This document shows, in pieces, positions 12,892 through 30,284 of a DNA stretch of 61,248 nucleotides. The stretch covers positions 1 through 61,248 of the forward strand of contig CAJAQB010000017.1 of assembly GCA_903943975.1 (NCBI GenBank), written 5' to 3'. The notes beneath the pieces are model-generated. The model was not told the origin of the DNA and searched no databases. It saw only the letters and a program-made list of their open reading frames with translations. The translations under genes were made by a program, and so were the position numbers. This stretch comes from Synechococcus lacustris (GTDB lineage Bacteria > Cyanobacteriota > Cyanobacteriia > PCC-6307 > Cyanobiaceae). How positions within the stretch are numbered: the first letter of the stretch is position 1; each line of letters starts with the position of its first letter.

Positions 12892-13737
12892 GTGCGCATT
12901 GCCAGCTGGAATCTGAACTCGATCCGCAGCCGCGAAGCCCATCTGCTGCGCTGGCTGGGGGAGGCCAAGCCCGATCTGGTGGGGCTCCAGGAAACCAAGG
13001 TGGAAGACAGCCTCTTTCCGCGGGCGGGCCTGGAGGCCGCCGGCTACCAGGCGGCCATCAGTGGCCAGAAGAGTTACAACGGCGTTGCCCTGCTCAGCCG
13101 CCAGCCGCTGGAAGACCTGCGCATCGGCTTTGAGGCTTTGTTACCTGGCGATAGCGAAGCCCAGCAGCTGGGGGAACAAAAGCGAGTGATCAGTGGCTCG
13201 CTGGAAGGGGTGCGAATTATCAATCTCTATGTGCCCAATGGTTCCGATCTGAAATCCGATAAGTACAGCTACAAGCTGGCCTGGCTGGCCTGCCTAAAGC
13301 GATATCTCGCGGTGCAAAGACAGCAGGGGGAAGCTTTCTGCCTGGTGGGAGATTTCAACATCGCCCTGGAGGACCGCGACCTGCACAACCCGGCCCGACT
13401 GACTGGCGGCATCATGGCCAGCGAACCCGAACGCCAGGCCCTACGGGCCTGCCTAGATGACGACCTGCACGATGCCTTCCGCCTATTTGAACCGGATACA
13501 GGCCACTGGAGCTGGTGGGATTACCGCTCCGGCGCCTGGGACCGGGACCGCGGCTGGCGCATCGATCACCTCTACCTATCAGAGGAGCTCCAAGCCAGGG
13601 CACTGCGATCTGTAATTCACAAGCAAGAAAGGGGCCAGGAAAAACCCAGCGACCACGCACCAGTTAGCGTTGATATCAGTGACGAAGTGGATGACGAAGC
13701 TGACGAAGAAGCTGATGATGGATTTATGGATCAATAG
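12892..13737 (+). CDS. xthA: Exodeoxyribonuclease III (AP endonuclease) with acidic repeat-derived tail
   Basis: A 281-residue enzyme of the exonuclease III/AP-endonuclease family, which cleaves abasic sites and trims 3' ends in base excision repair. Catalytic motifs are intact: ASWNLNSIRSR, GLQETKVED near residue 37, LYVPNG near 105, GDFNIALEDRD near 150, and WRIDHLYLS and KPSDHAPVSVDI near 220 and 245. The start is GTG 12892. The last 20 residues are almost all Asp/Glu/Ala and are not part of the family fold. The final 17 bases are already inside the octamer repeat array that follows, so the array seems to have invaded or grown from the end of the gene. Confidence 0.92.
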   Translation: MRIASWNLNSIRSREAHLLRWLGEAKPDLVGLQETKVEDSLFPRAGLEAAGYQAAISGQKSYNGVALLSRQPLEDLRIGFEALLPGDSEAQQLGEQKRVISGSLEGVRIINLYVPNGSDLKSDKYSYKLAWLACLKRYLAVQRQQGEAFCLVGDFNIALEDRDLHNPARLTGGIMASEPERQALRACLDDDLHDAFRLFEPDTGHWSWWDYRSGAWDRDRGWRIDHLYLSEELQARALRSVIHKQERGQEKPSDHAPVSVDISDEVDDEADEEADDGFMDQ

Positions 13738-13880
13738 ATCAATGGATCAATGGATCAATGGATCAATGGATCAATAGATTAATGGATTGATAGATTAATG
13801 GATTAATGGATTAATGGATTTATGGATTAATAGATTTATGGATTAATAGATTTATGGATTAATAGATCAATTGATTAATG
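13721..13880. repeat. Tandem octamer array, 20 units of GATYAATR
   Basis: Twenty consecutive 8-base units in perfect register from 13721 to 13880. The first block is GATCAATG/GATCAATA, followed by GATTAATG/GATTAATA and GATTTATG variants. The first two units lie in the exonuclease III reading frame and supply its stop codon. There are no unique spacers, so it is not a CRISPR array. It starts a 535-base stretch (13738-14272) without a gene. Confidence 0.95.
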
Positions 13881-13968
13881 GCACCTCAAAAAATGCCGAG
13901 CAGCCTTGGGCTCTCGTTCTGCGGCCAGGGATCCGTGAGGCTCCCGTGGCAAAACAAGGTTTCGTCTA

Positions 13969-14018
13969 CTCTCTTGAAAATGACTAGGGTCAAGTGACTA
14001 GGGTCATTTTCAAGAGAG
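13969..14018. repeat. 16-bp perfect inverted repeat with doubled TGAC-N4-GTCA core
   Basis: Arms CTCTCTTGAAAATGAC (13969-13984) and GTCATTTTCAAGAGAG (14003-14018) are exact complements around an 18-base centre. Overlapping the inner ends are two direct copies of TGACTAGGGTCA (13981-13992 and 13995-14006). There is no T-run after either arm, so it is a poor fit to an intrinsic terminator. A related copy lies at 30169-30206. Confidence 0.9.
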
Positions 14019-14050
14019 CATCTAGGTCAACGCCCAACAGCACCAACCCT

Positions 14051-14170
14051 GCAGCAATAGCCAAGCAGTCCTACAGCATTAACCAAACAGCATTAACCAA
14101 ACAGCATTAACCAAACAGCATTAGCCAAGCAGCACTGGCTAAGCGACACTGGCTAAGCAGCATCAAACAA
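14051..14170. repeat. Degenerate 14-bp tandem repeat
   Basis: Units of consensus ACAGCATTAACCAA occur back to back: three identical copies (14073-14114), one with a single change (14115-14128), then three more diverged units ending near 14170. An isolated related unit lies at 14051-14064. This is non-coding; nothing else is visible between here and the devA stop at 14273. Confidence 0.85.
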
Positions 14171-14272
14171 GAAACATAAACCCAGCGAAAGTAAAATGTT
14201 ATATCATCAAAATCACCACCAGACAGAATCAAATCAAGGGGCAATTTTTAGTGGTAACAGTAGAACTATAAA

Positions 14273-15022
14273 TCAATGGGAGTCATCCCTCATTTTGCTC
14301 ACAAAAGCCTCCTCTTCCTCCTTGCCAGCAAGGCGGCCATCTTCCACAATGATAATGCGATCGGCCACATCTAAAATCTTGTTATCATGGGTAACCATGA
14401 TGATCGTGGTTTTTTCGGTTTCAGCCAGTTCCTTCATCAAGTTCACCACCGTTCGGCCCGATTCCTTATCCAAGGCGGCTGTGGGTTCATCCCCCAACAG
14501 AATCTTTGGCCTACTCACCAACGCCCGGGCAATCGCCACCCGTTGGCGCTGGCCGCCCGACAGGTTGGCCGGAAAATAATCGACTCGATCGCCTAGGCCC
14601 AGCTTGCAAAGCATTTCTTCAGCCAACAGATCCATATCTGATTCGTAGTACTTGTCATGCAACTCGAGGGAGAGCCGCACATTTTTCCGGGCATTAAGAA
14701 ACATCATTAGGTTATGGGCCTGGAAGATAAAACCAACATTCAATCTCAACTTGGCCAATTGTTCTTTACTGGCGCCATTCAGCTCCTCCCCAAGGATTTT
14801 TAAACTGCCATCCTGGCAGGAACGCAAACCGCCCAGCATCGTAAGCAAGGTGGTTTTGCCAGAGCCGGAGGGGCCAGTGCAGATCACCAGTTGCCCAGGA
14901 TAAATATCCAGCGAAATATCCTTAAGTGCATGCTTGCGCTCCTCGCCAGTGCCGAACCAGTGGTTCACATGCTTGAGGGAAATCAGCGGCTGCAGAGGCG
15001 GCAGCGCCTGTTCAGAAAACAT
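14273..15022 (-). CDS. devA: DevA-family ABC exporter ATPase
   Basis: A 249-residue ATPase of the MacB/LolD/DevA group. Walker A is GPSGSGKTTLL, signature LSGGQRQRVAIARAL, Walker B ILLGDEPTAALD, and switch His VTHDNK. It energises the DevC permease; with DevB and an outer-membrane TolC-like duct, such systems export glycolipids or other envelope molecules. ATG 15022 overlaps the devC stop by 11 bases; the frame extends to 15076 but that part lies inside devC. In filamentous species DevBCA builds the heterocyst envelope. No heterocysts are implied here, and the substrate is unknown. Confidence 0.88.
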   Translation of the reverse strand: MFSEQALPPLQPLISLKHVNHWFGTGEERKHALKDISLDIYPGQLVICTGPSGSGKTTLLTMLGGLRSCQDGSLKILGEELNGASKEQLAKLRLNVGFIFQAHNLMMFLNARKNVRLSLELHDKYYESDMDLLAEEMLCKLGLGDRVDYFPANLSGGQRQRVAIARALVSRPKILLGDEPTAALDKESGRTVVNLMKELAETEKTTIIMVTHDNKILDVADRIIIVEDGRLAGKEEEEAFVSKMRDDSH

Positions 15023-16187
15023 CGGCCGGATCCAATTGCACAAGTTTGCGGGTGGCCAGGGCCCCGGAGCCCACACACATCACAAAGGTGAGACCCAGCA
15101 CCTGGAGGGCGCGACCGGTGGTCATAAACACCGACAACTTAGTAACGGCCGCCAACAGCGCATAGAGGCCCAGGGAACTGAGCACCCCAGGGATAAAGCC
15201 AATCACCGCCAGAATTGCCGACTGCTGAATCACCACCCCGATCACATAGGCATCGGTGTAACCCATCGCCTTGAGCGTGGCGTACTGGGGCAGGGAATTC
15301 ATCACATCCCCAAACAGAATCTGATAAACAATTATGCTTCCAACCACAAATCCCACCAACACTCCCAGCGAGAAAATAAAGCCCACCGAGGAATTCTTCT
15401 TCCAGTAGTTCACCTCCAGCTGGGCCAGCTCATCACGGCTAAGCACCTTCACATCCTTGGGCATCAACGGTTGCAGCTCTGCCTTAACTGCCGCCAGGGA
15501 AGCGCCAGGCAGCAACTGGATCAGACCAAGCTGGATCAAGCGGGGATCCTGCTTCGGAAACAGGTATAGAAACGTACTATCGCTGGTGATTAGATTGGCC
15601 TCCGCAGCAAAGGTGGCCCCCATCGAAAAAGTATCAACAATCCGAATCGAGCGACCGTTCACCTCCAGGGGCAGCACCCCATCGCGGGCCACAGCCTTTG
15701 CCACATCGCCATATTGCTTTTTCGAATTGCGATCAAATAGGGCATTTCGCAGCGGTTGCAGCCGGGCGGGGTCCTGCTCCAACTCCGGAAAAGCCAGGGA
15801 GGGCCTACTGGGATTCACTCCAAACACGTACACATCAAACGACTCCCGGGTGGCCGGCGTGATCCAGGTGGCCCTAGAGATCCGCAGGGGCGACACCCCC
15901 GCCACCACCTGCACCCCCAGGGCCTGATACAAACGACTGCGCTGAAAATCCTGCAGGGAACCCATGTTGCTGTAACCAGCACTCACCAGCACCAGATCAG
16001 CGCGCAGGCGATCAATGGGCTTGCGCTGGCTGTTGTAGATGCTATCGAGCAAACCGAGCTGAAAAAACATCAGCAGATTTGAAAAACTCACCCCCGCCAG
16101 GGCAATGCCCATCTTCACGGGATTGTTGGTTACCTGGAGCCAGGCCACCGGGGTGCGTTTCAACCATTTAGCCAGACGCTTGTTCAT
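15012..16187 (-). CDS. devC: DevC-family ABC exporter permease
   Basis: A 391-residue FtsX/MacB-type permease. An N-terminal transmembrane helix (residues ~25-45) is followed by a large extracytoplasmic domain (~50-260). Three more helices follow at the C terminus, including SVGFIFSLGVLVGFVVGSII and the conserved YATLKAMGYTDAYV loop near residue 305. It overlaps devB by 4 bases (ATGA) and devA by 11, so the three subunits are translated together. Confidence 0.88.
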   Translation of the reverse strand: MNKRLAKWLKRTPVAWLQVTNNPVKMGIALAGVSFSNLLMFFQLGLLDSIYNSQRKPIDRLRADLVLVSAGYSNMGSLQDFQRSRLYQALGVQVVAGVSPLRISRATWITPATRESFDVYVFGVNPSRPSLAFPELEQDPARLQPLRNALFDRNSKKQYGDVAKAVARDGVLPLEVNGRSIRIVDTFSMGATFAAEANLITSDSTFLYLFPKQDPRLIQLGLIQLLPGASLAAVKAELQPLMPKDVKVLSRDELAQLEVNYWKKNSSVGFIFSLGVLVGFVVGSIIVYQILFGDVMNSLPQYATLKAMGYTDAYVIGVVIQQSAILAVIGFIPGVLSSLGLYALLAAVTKLSVFMTTGRALQVLGLTFVMCVGSGALATRKLVQLDPADVF

Positions 16188-17365
16188 GGCTTCAGACCCG
16201 GCTGCCCATTGGCCGGCTGCCCCTTTGGATCAAAGACCACATTTACCTGCAGATTTGAGCCATAACGCAGCTTTAGTTGCTGCTCCGAAGTGGTCTCAAG
16301 GCGAATCTTCACCTCGAAAACCCGCTGGTCCAAATTTTCGCCAGGCTGGCCAGTAAATACCGTTTGCCGCTGTACCTGGGAAAGCACCTGATAAACCTTG
16401 CCCTTGAGGCTACCTTCAAAGCCATCGGCAGTGATCGTTGCTGTTTGCCCTTCAAACAACTTCGGCAGATCAGTTTGATATACCTCCGCGCTAACAATCA
16501 TGTGGCTGGTATCTGCCATCTCCAGGATGCCATCTTCACCCACCTTGTCGCCAGGGCGCACAACTATTCGCAGAATCTGACCATTCTGGGGGGCCCGCAC
16601 CGTAGCAAAGTCAAATTCCTGACGGGCGCGGTTACGGGAGGCAATCGCCTTACGCAATTCGTTGTTGGCGGTGGTTACATCCTCCGGCCGCACCTCCTTG
16701 ATCTGGGCCAAGGTTTGGCGGGCACTTTCAATGTCGGCCCGCAGGGTGCTGAGCGTGCCGGCACGGGTTTCAATCGCCTTGGCCAGGTCAGCTGTGGTGG
16801 TATCAGCCCGGGTGCGATAGCGGTCGCGCTGCAGCTCCGACACCCCCCCGGCCTTGAATAACTGGTCATAGCGCTGGGTTTCCAGCTTGGCTTCACTGGC
16901 GGTAGATCGGGCCGCCTTCACAGACTGATCCTGGGATAACTGCTCACCGGCCAGTTGTCTTTCCAGGCTCTGCACCTTGTATTCCTGGGCGCGAATTTCC
17001 CCCTGCTTAGCCCCCGCCTTCACCTGGGCAAGTTTGCTTTCGGCCACGGCCACCAGTTCATTGGCCTCCTCCAGGGAGGCCTTGAGCGTGCCGTAGCTAT
17101 TCAGGATCGCCAATGGCGTCCCCTCCTTCACCACCTGGTTTTCCAGCACCAGGATTTTCTCGATCCGATCACCACTGAGGGAACTGGGCACCGAGACCTT
17201 ACGGATCTTCGTTTCCGGCTCCAGCCGTCCCAGGGCCGACACCTTTCTGGGGGCCAACTGGGGTGGTGGCTCCACGGGTTTGGGCTGACAGGCCACCAGC
17301 AAACTGCTGCCGGCCAGCAGGCTGAGGCCGCAGACGCCCAGTAGGGCCACACGTAAACGACTCAT
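16184..17365 (-). CDS. devB: DevB-type HlyD/membrane-fusion adaptor
   Basis: A 393-residue periplasmic adaptor with an N-terminal signal-anchor ending in LVACQ, a possible lipobox. Next comes a biotinyl-lipoyl-like half motif (GRLEPETKIRKVSVPSSL near residue 45) and a long coiled coil from about 100 to 240. A beta-barrel half follows, with VRAPQNGQILRIVVRPGDKV near 255. It links DevAC to an outer-membrane channel that is not encoded here. Its start overlaps the stop of the hydroxyacid dehydrogenase gene by 4 bases. Confidence 0.85.
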   Translation of the reverse strand: MSRLRVALLGVCGLSLLAGSSLLVACQPKPVEPPPQLAPRKVSALGRLEPETKIRKVSVPSSLSGDRIEKILVLENQVVKEGTPLAILNSYGTLKASLEEANELVAVAESKLAQVKAGAKQGEIRAQEYKVQSLERQLAGEQLSQDQSVKAARSTASEAKLETQRYDQLFKAGGVSELQRDRYRTRADTTTADLAKAIETRAGTLSTLRADIESARQTLAQIKEVRPEDVTTANNELRKAIASRNRARQEFDFATVRAPQNGQILRIVVRPGDKVGEDGILEMADTSHMIVSAEVYQTDLPKLFEGQTATITADGFEGSLKGKVYQVLSQVQRQTVFTGQPGENLDQRVFEVKIRLETTSEQQLKLRYGSNLQVNVVFDPKGQPANGQPGLKP

Positions 17366-18372
17366 GGGCGGGGCAGCACCAAGTTTGGGCAGGCCAAACC
17401 TGCCTCCATGGCATCAAGATTATCAAGGGTGGTGGCGGCAATGGCAGCCAGGGCCTCATGGGTAAGGAATGCCTGGTGGCCAGTGATCAACACATTAGGA
17501 AAACTCTTGAGTTGATGGAAAAGATCATCGCCGATAATATCTTCGCTGTGATCTGCAAAGAACAGAGCCTTTTCCCCCTCATACACATCAATTGCCAAGC
17601 CGCCCAGGTGGCGGCTGCGCAGGGCCCTGATCACCGCCGGGGTGTCGATCAGGCCCCCACGGCTGGAATTGATCAACAACGCCCCAGCCTTCATCAAGGC
17701 CAAAGACTCTTCATTAATCAGATGGTGGGTACTTGGCAGCAAAGGGCAATGGAGACTCACCACCTCAGACTGCTGCAGCAACTCAGGTAATTCCAGATAT
17801 GTAACCCCCGCCGCCACCAGGTCTGGCACTTGACCCACCGGATCACTGGCCAGCACCTTCATGCCAAGGCCCAGCAACAGCCGGGCGGTGGCGGCCCCAA
17901 TCAAACCGGTGCCCACCACCCCAACGCTGCGGCCCCGCAGCTGGATTCCCACCAGGCCAGAGAGATCAAAATTATTTTCGCGGATGCGGCTATGGCTGCG
18001 GTGCACCCGCCGGGCCAGGCCAAACAGCAGGGCCAGCGTAAATTCGGCCACGGAATCGGCGCCATAGGCGGGCACCCGTGCCACTGAAACGCCCCAACGG
18101 CTGGCCGCCTCAATGTCTACCTGGTTGCTGCCGGCACAGCGCAGGGCCAGAAAACGCACGCCCTGGGCTGCGATCCGCTCCAGGGTGAGCGCTGAAAGGT
18201 CGTCGTTTACGAAGGCACAAACCGCCTCGTGGCCCGCCACGATCCCAGCGGTGCTGGCTTCAAGCCGCGCCGAGGAATAGGTGAAGGTGTGGGGGCTGGA
18301 CTGCCGTTCCCCCAGTTGGCTGGCGAAGCTGGCCCGGTCATAGGACCGGGCGCTGGTCATCAACACGCGCAT
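17362..18372 (-). CDS. D-2-hydroxyacid dehydrogenase (D-lactate dehydrogenase type)
   Basis: About 336 residues of the NAD-dependent D-isomer-specific 2-hydroxyacid dehydrogenase family. The Rossmann motif VGVVGTGLIGAATARLL is near residue 146. The catalytic Arg and surroundings are in INSSRGGLIDTPAVI near 235, and the active-site His is in TGHQAFLTHEAL near 298. Overall pattern and length are closest to fermentative D-lactate dehydrogenases (pyruvate to D-lactate). ATG 18372 is preferred over GTG 18378. It heads the translationally coupled devBCA set, an unusual partner for an envelope exporter. Confidence 0.85.
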   Translation of the reverse strand: MRVLMTSARSYDRASFASQLGERQSSPHTFTYSSARLEASTAGIVAGHEAVCAFVNDDLSALTLERIAAQGVRFLALRCAGSNQVDIEAASRWGVSVARVPAYGADSVAEFTLALLFGLARRVHRSHSRIRENNFDLSGLVGIQLRGRSVGVVGTGLIGAATARLLLGLGMKVLASDPVGQVPDLVAAGVTYLELPELLQQSEVVSLHCPLLPSTHHLINEESLALMKAGALLINSSRGGLIDTPAVIRALRSRHLGGLAIDVYEGEKALFFADHSEDIIGDDLFHQLKSFPNVLITGHQAFLTHEALAAIAATTLDNLDAMEAGLACPNLVLPRP

Positions 18373-18434
18373 GGTCACAGGCCTTGGGCAACCTAAGTAA
18401 ATACTCAGGCCCAGTGATCAAAACAGCGATTGTG

Positions 18435-29966: not shown

Positions 29967-30044
29967 TTGAGCCTGAGCATTAGGCCTAAAAGTTGAGCCT
30001 GAGCATTAGGCCTAAAAGTTGCGCCTGAGTAATGCAGTTACAAA
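29967..30044. repeat. 26-bp tandem direct repeat
   Basis: Two identical 26-base units (29967-29992 and 29993-30018), each beginning TTGAGCCTGAGCATTAGG, are followed by a third decayed unit to about 30044. Non-coding. Confidence 0.9.
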
Positions 30045-30168
30045 TTATCATTGGTGCCCTAGGTGAATCTTCTCCTTTAAGGAGCAGCTCAGCAACTCAA
30101 GAGCACATCCGCCCAGCAGACCGGAATCCTAAAAGCCAGCAGAGCAGAACCCTAAAAACCAGCCGAGC

Positions 30169-30206
30169 CTCTCTTGAATATGACCCTAGTCATATGACCC
30201 TGGTCA
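30169..30206. repeat. Second copy of the TGAC-N4-GTCA palindromic element
   Basis: CTCTCTTGAATATGAC (30169-30184) matches the left arm of the element at 13969 with one change. It is followed by TGACCCTAGTCA (30181-30192) and TGACCCTGGTCA (30195-30206), with the same 14-base spacing between the two 12-mers as in the first copy, then TTTTCAT. The first 12-mer is the exact reverse complement of the one at 13981. The right outer arm has decayed. Confidence 0.85.
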
Positions 30207-30284
30207 TTTTCATTAGGGTCAACTTTGCTGTCCATGCCCGGCGCCGCTGGTTCGAAAGCAAAAGCCCCCGCAGGGCTGGACTCC

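Follow-up and report, generated by a model that had tools for sequence, protein, structure and literature searches.

Short tandemly repeated repetitive (STRR) heptamers are found in filamentous cyanobacteria. The octamer array that we examined at the 3' end of xthA in Synechococcus lacustris resembles them in being a short-unit intergenic array in a cyanobacterium, but it has a unit of 8, occupies a single locus and belongs to a genome in which no unit is shared between loci. For the element next to this array, the closest match is BrickBuilt, an IS5-type MITE of Porphyromonas gingivalis with a minisatellite of one 23-nt unit inside the MITE (PMC4596501). As far as its description goes, the likeness lies in terminal repeats that an IS5-family element of the genome has as well, and in the minisatellite inside the MITE. 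Unlike BrickBuilt as described there, the arrays inside or beside copies in our genome differ from copy to copy, and the genome has a hairpin family that lies mostly outside the MITE.

That hairpin family recalls the REP/REPIN elements with their RAYT transposases (PMC3116915, PMC3733652), as those accounts present them, in being species-specific, dispersed and intergenic, in a doublet structure with a clover as a possible alternative fold, in its frequent position at gene 3' ends, and in the presence of one tyrosine transposase of that type in the same genome. It differs in that the stem-end tag is rare (GTAG in 1 and CGTC in 0 of 24 hairpins) and in that the arrays beside the hairpins have unrelated units, whereas REP clusters, in the same accounts, repeat the REP itself. 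Archaeal Borg tandem repeats are perfect, A-rich and, as described, not tied to a dispersed hairpin (PMC9879509), while our octamer array is imperfect and our arrays lie in a bacterial genome, beside a dispersed hairpin. In a search of the open-licence literature we recognised no bacterial case in which tandem arrays with unrelated units are linked to a dispersed palindrome.

The octamer array and the xthA gene end

Positions below refer to the window, the whole stretch of 61,248 nucleotides that was analysed, unless a contig of the 23-contig, 2.47-Mb draft genome (G000) is named.

12892 to 13737, plus strand: xthA, exonuclease III family, 281 aa, with an acidic C-terminal tail and its last 17 bases in the array (gene calling, Exo_endo_phos domain match)
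13721 to 13880, plus strand: octamer array, 20 units (unit split, Tandem Repeats Finder, shuffles)
14273 to 15076, minus strand: ABC transporter ATPase gene, convergent to xthA, which we take to be DevA-like (gene calling, domain match)
15012 to 18378, minus strand: genes for an FtsX-type permease, an HlyD-type fusion protein and a D-2-hydroxyacid dehydrogenase (gene calling, domain match, gene order in relatives)

A unit-by-unit split of the window divides 13721-13880 into exactly 20 octamers in unbroken register, as an earlier note on this DNA had read it. The units run GATTTATG, GATCAATA, four copies of GATCAATG, GATCAATA and GATTAATG (units 1-8), followed by GATTGATA, three copies of GATTAATG, the pair GATTTATG GATTAATA three times, GATCAATT and GATTAATG (units 9-20), with unit positions 1-3 and 6-7 invariant across all 20. 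The consensus GATYAATR, proposed for every unit in the earlier note, matches 14 of the 20 but not the other six (GATTTATG four times, GATTGATA and GATCAATT once each). Tandem Repeats Finder scores the array at 195 (period 8) and 223 (period 32), against a maximum of 57 in 300 dinucleotide shuffles of 13701-13900. Homogeneous blocks make up units 3-6 and 10-12 and a 16-bp alternation units 13-18; these identical or alternating blocks fit stepwise expansion and support the previous suggestion that they record successive expansions.

As had also been read from the sequence, the array begins within the end of xthA and supplies its stop: it starts inside codon GGA (13720-13722), its first 17 bases belong to the gene, and the TAG stop (13735-13737) is formed by unit 2 and the first base of unit 3. 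The proposed genome search for other GATYAATR arrays returned none besides 13721-13880, and we found no second octamer array in the whole draft; outside the array there are only three single 16-mers, with one mismatch each, on contigs C11, C18 and C19. The array was likewise not found in three other genomes of the same genus. Of the two observations that the earlier note thought would mark it as a one-off without dynamics, absence from relatives and constant length within the strain, the former is thus what these three genomes show. Its fold is no better than that of shuffles (z -0.24 for the first 148 of 160 bases). We propose that the array is a lineage-specific noncoding minisatellite at the xthA 3' end, set against a MITE terminal repeat, and that it grew by slippage and unequal exchange.

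The xthA gene itself is present in 37 of 40 genomes (own included), and its end was read in 30 loci, our own and those of 29 relatives. When the XthA C-terminus is compared with these relatives, as had been recommended, a D/E-rich acidic tail is seen by eye in 20 of 21 from the same family (within the genus, e.g. EEEDNF and EENDD) and is missing in 8 from other families; its length and sequence vary across the family. Because 20 of 21 same-family relatives carry such a tail, it is old, and the view that it was newly acquired was wrong; only about the last residues, GFMDQ, derive from the array. The further idea that changes at the first units alter the protein end applies to units 1 and 2, whose loss or gain would, by computation, lengthen the protein from 281 to 288-304 residues, but not from unit 3 onward, where losing one or two units still leaves 281 aa (computed). 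Since these losses are without effect and slippage is likeliest in the homogeneous blocks, which are past the stop, the array would make a poor protein switch.

An FAD-linked oxidase gene lies no more than 104 bp from the xthA stop in 10 of 20 same-family relatives examined, including both same-genus ones. In the same-genus relatives it is the very next gene after xthA; here the two are kept apart by an ABC exporter operon and the D-2-hydroxyacid dehydrogenase gene (14273-18378), and the octamer array sits at that junction. Rfam gave three matches in the window, namely two tRNAs and a cobalamin riboswitch (2521-2661, RF00174, 49 bits), and none at the hairpin described below.

A MITE-like element and a dispersed hairpin family

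13879 to 14262 (end about 14260), plus strand: decayed MITE-like element of about 384 bp, its left end abutting the octamer array (terminal repeats, sibling copies)
13879 to 13897, plus strand: left terminal repeat TGGCACCTCAAAAAATGCC (family: GGGCACCTCGAAAAATNCC), 17/19 positions with N counted as a match, 0/200 shuffles
13968 to 14018, no strand given: 51-bp hairpin with two direct 12-mers TGACTAGGGTCA, member of a dispersed family, inside the MITE (repeat search, alignment, covariance model, fold)
14073 to 14162, no strand given: 14-bp array (ACAGCATTAACCAA and variants) inside the MITE-like element (Tandem Repeats Finder)
14237 to 14259, plus strand: degraded right terminal repeat, 16/23 positions, 0/2000 shuffles reach 16
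29967 to 30168, no strand given: two unrelated arrays beside the second hairpin copy, a 26-mer at 29967-30029 and a 23-mer at 30113-30168 (Tandem Repeats Finder)
30157 to 30230, minus strand: second hairpin copy in the window (covariance model)

Judged by its sequence, the stretch from 13879 to about 14260 is a decayed member of an IS5-type MITE family, because the same terminal repeat, in the form GGGC[A/C]CCTCGAAAAAT, flanks broken reading frames of an IS5-family transposase at C6:63758 (NF033581, 72.1 bits, below the cut-off of 140). Terminal inverted repeats are common to the window's element and this fuller IS5-family element (left 17/19, right 16/23), and, with up to 2 mismatches allowed, the left one is found at 11 genomic positions. 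Copies or ends of the IS5-family element with the MITE terminal repeat are found at C6:63758, C5:21713 and C8:238935, two of the three at contig ends. Sibling MITEs are present on C4 (171 bp), C21 (346 bp) and C14 (111 bp, without the hairpin), and a further copy is divided between the ends of C16 and C18. By eye, putative 4-bp target duplications flank the siblings on C4 (TAAA), C14 (ATAA) and C16/C18 (TTAA, across two contig ends); the C21 flanks, CTCA and ATCA, differ by one mismatch, and the window copy shows only a left TTAA flank. Since the siblings have 4-bp duplications, we dropped the idea that the octamer is an 8-bp target-site duplication produced by repeated insertion and excision. 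A unit-like ATCAATGG to the right of the MITE (14272-14279, at the ABC gene end) is a single match and proves nothing. Similar DNA was found neither in plasmids (query 13721-14272) nor in phages (query 13881-14272).

The hairpin is built as TGACTAGGGTCA-NN-TGACTAGGGTCA within a 16-17-bp stem, and the genome has 36 occurrences of the 12-mer compared with 3 of the reversed pattern. With a covariance model built on an alignment of 19 copies, we identified 24 strong copies and some partial ones in this genome, no strong copy in three same-genus genomes, and weaker matches in three others of 151 family genomes, own included (G122, G009 and G109). In the alignment 84.0% of cells pair, four pairs have changes in both partners, and the pairing breaks when the partners are shifted against each other; as DNA the fold is strong on both strands (z -9.1). 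All but one of the 24 copies lie fully outside called genes, the exception overlapping one by 37 bases. Seven were classed as MITE type by terminal repeats or shared flank (C4, C18, C17, C21 twice, C22 and C2) and 17 were not, the terminal repeats being clear on both sides only in C4, C21:18934 and the window. Doublets of the form TGACNNNNGTCA occur in 7 of 300 family genomes, with many copies only in G000 (19) and G122 (12). In other collections, from which records near our genome may be absent, the doublet was found in three stretches of genome_contigs, all from unrelated bacteria, and nowhere in viral_contigs. At G009:C10:52805-52879 there is a 15-bp array, TCATGACCATAGTCA repeated 4.7 times, which repeats a TGAC..GTCA unit.

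Assignment of the family to the REPINs was considered and rejected. The dispersed extragenic hairpin or doublet is there (24 copies), but neither the GTAG/CGTC tag as a family feature nor a RAYT flanked by the repeat was found. The single Y1_Tnp match of the genome (L224, G000:C18:12559-12792; IS200-like/REP-type) is partial, probably decayed and near a contig end, and scores 39 bits with the NCBIfam REP transposase model, whose cut-off is 80. No hairpin unit above chance lies beside it in the 2,102 bases searched, of which about 370 bases are 3' before the contig end.

Tandem arrays crowd around the hairpins

Spacers were compared over 842,745 bases of the genome that include all 24 strong hairpin copies; the hairpin stretches were chosen for holding hairpins, and the hairpin-free spacers came from the same stretches and from C19, C11 and C13. 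The counts leave out any array of which more than half the length overlapped a hairpin. The gene caller was a simple codon-usage script that did not report the ABC ATPase gene, one that overlaps the gene next to it, and the window spacer was therefore counted as 1274 bp instead of 535.

Arrays scoring at least 50 are present in 20 of 24 hairpin spacers and in 27 of 291 others (Fisher 3.5e-15), leaving four hairpin spacers without one; at a score of at least 80 the numbers are 15 of 24 and 11 of 291 (Fisher 4.5e-13). In all there are 42 arrays in hairpin spacers and 32 in the others, or 3.23 versus 0.30 per kb. When spacers are matched by length, hairpin versus other, an array is found in 0/1 versus 6/138 (60-200 bp), 8/9 versus 7/70 (200-400 bp), 10/10 versus 11/59 (400-800 bp) and 2/4 versus 3/23 (over 800 bp), and among element-free spacers of at least 200 bp within 10 kb, in 9 of 59. 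The hairpin copies outside the MITE type have an array in 14 of 17 cases. Arrays also lie close to the hairpin, at a mean distance of 97.5 bp, where placing them at random within their spacers gives 146.0 bp (p 0.002); at a score of at least 80 the means are 86.5 and 135.3 bp (p 0.005). Seventeen of the 42 are within 22 bp, with 6.8 expected (p 0.0002), while for scores of at least 80 the excess at this range is not significant (8/27 versus 5.1 expected, p 0.08). As to other genomes, intergenic arrays number 2 (G012) and 6 (G007) per 400 kb versus 22 on C19 of our genome, and same-genus G001 has 11 in 461 kb.

The hairpin spacers lie in variable regions: their flanking genes are informative in the sampled relatives for 2 of 21, against 104 of 273 other spacers. 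With 2 of 21 informative, we drew no conclusion about a synteny break at the hairpins. Among pairs of flanking genes that are non-informative, an array is present in 17 of 169 hairpin-free and 17 of 21 hairpin pairs. Hairpin spacers are also more often convergent (9/21 versus 37/273, p 0.0018). Other hairpins were considered as array sites and set aside, as only three hairpin-free spacers have a stem score of at least 14, two of them with arrays, which is too few.

Array units are mostly unrelated to one another and to the element, and in general they are not built from element sequence (Mann-Whitney p 0.90 versus other arrays). The one clear exception is a 27-mer array at C16/C18, which repeats the inner left end of its MITE copy; because this stretch is single in the C4 sibling, the array clearly post-dates its element. 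At C21, array-like units lie on both sides of the MITE.

A genome of another genus in the same family, G122, has its own dispersed doublet hairpin (TGACCATGGTCA twice without a spacer) at about 20 places, with doublets located on its contigs C3, C12, C18, C22, C49, C96 and others. Within 500 bp of the hairpin, an array is found at 3 of 16 G122 loci examined, all classed as coding, compared with 21 of 24 in G000. Since the G122 doublets are mostly without arrays, a hairpin alone is insufficient; stem length, host repair background or age may account for the contrast.

Possible origins of the arrays

The explanation that we favour, tentatively, is that the hairpin provokes tandem duplication in its vicinity and that slippage follows. 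Once extruded, or exposed on the lagging strand, the hairpin would stall replication, the stalled ends would realign on nearby short matches and leave small local tandem duplications, and these would later expand by slippage. The array, the element, the association, the closeness and the absence from relatives are observed, and the causal role of the hairpin and the part played by replication are inferred; the proposal does without any effect on xthA. Because most units have no relation to one another or to the element, the element carries no repeat but seems to make its neighbourhood repeat. The broader formulation, somewhat more doubtful, is that a dispersed lineage-specific hairpin acts as a minisatellite nursery, with neighbouring unique DNA duplicating wherever the hairpin lands, and that it may have given rise to dozens of arrays with unrelated units, the xthA octamer being one.

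The main rival, possible though we would not expect it to hold, dispenses with any causal tie and supposes that the elements prefer array-bearing or variable spacers, such as convergent gene ends, accessory regions and AT-rich TTAA-like targets. The convergent bias and the rarity in relatives of the genes flanking hairpin spacers are what such tolerant sites or target choice would give, as are the duplications TAAA, ATAA and TTAA of the MITE family, given that unit GATTAATG offers a TTAA and the window MITE has TTAA at its left flank. At C21, the array-like units to either side of the MITE fit insertion into an existing array and thereby speak against hairpin-caused arrays. Against shared site preference, arrays are few even in hairpin-free spacers that are length-matched, local or non-conserved, the hairpin copies not of MITE type also have arrays in 14 of 17 cases, and the C16/C18 array formed inside its element.

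It is improbable that the array, or the hairpin with the array, serves as a functional 3' end, either as an mRNA stabiliser or as a terminator that acts in both directions between xthA and the ABC gene convergent to it. Such a role would suit a hairpin that is strong on both strands and lies between convergent genes, as in the window and at 9 of 21 hairpin spacers, but a consensus scan detected no T-run terminator at the hairpin, the array folds like its shuffles, and relatives that have the same gene are without the array. We give very little credence to a slippage switch of the XthA C-terminus, the reading of the earlier note: loss or gain of unit 1 or 2 does alter the computed tail, yet these two units lie outside the homogeneous blocks, all of which are past the stop, and the tail varies in length and sequence across the family anyway. 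An assembly artefact, with the array or its length wrong, is just as hard to credit. The genome is a 23-contig draft whose contig ends fall in such repeats (C2, C16, C18 and C21), but the octamer units differ in an ordered way and the array is inside a contig with single-copy flanks, although its exact length may be off.

If hairpin-provoked duplication is the right reading, it bears on the birth of minisatellites, a long-standing open question, since most are known only once grown. A genome with arrays of different units around one hairpin makes the birth step directly testable, by comparing filled with empty sites and by a reporter. A further suggestion is that, where a repeat array lies at the end of a gene, it can have arisen as a by-product of an element close by and need not be a regulatory switch.
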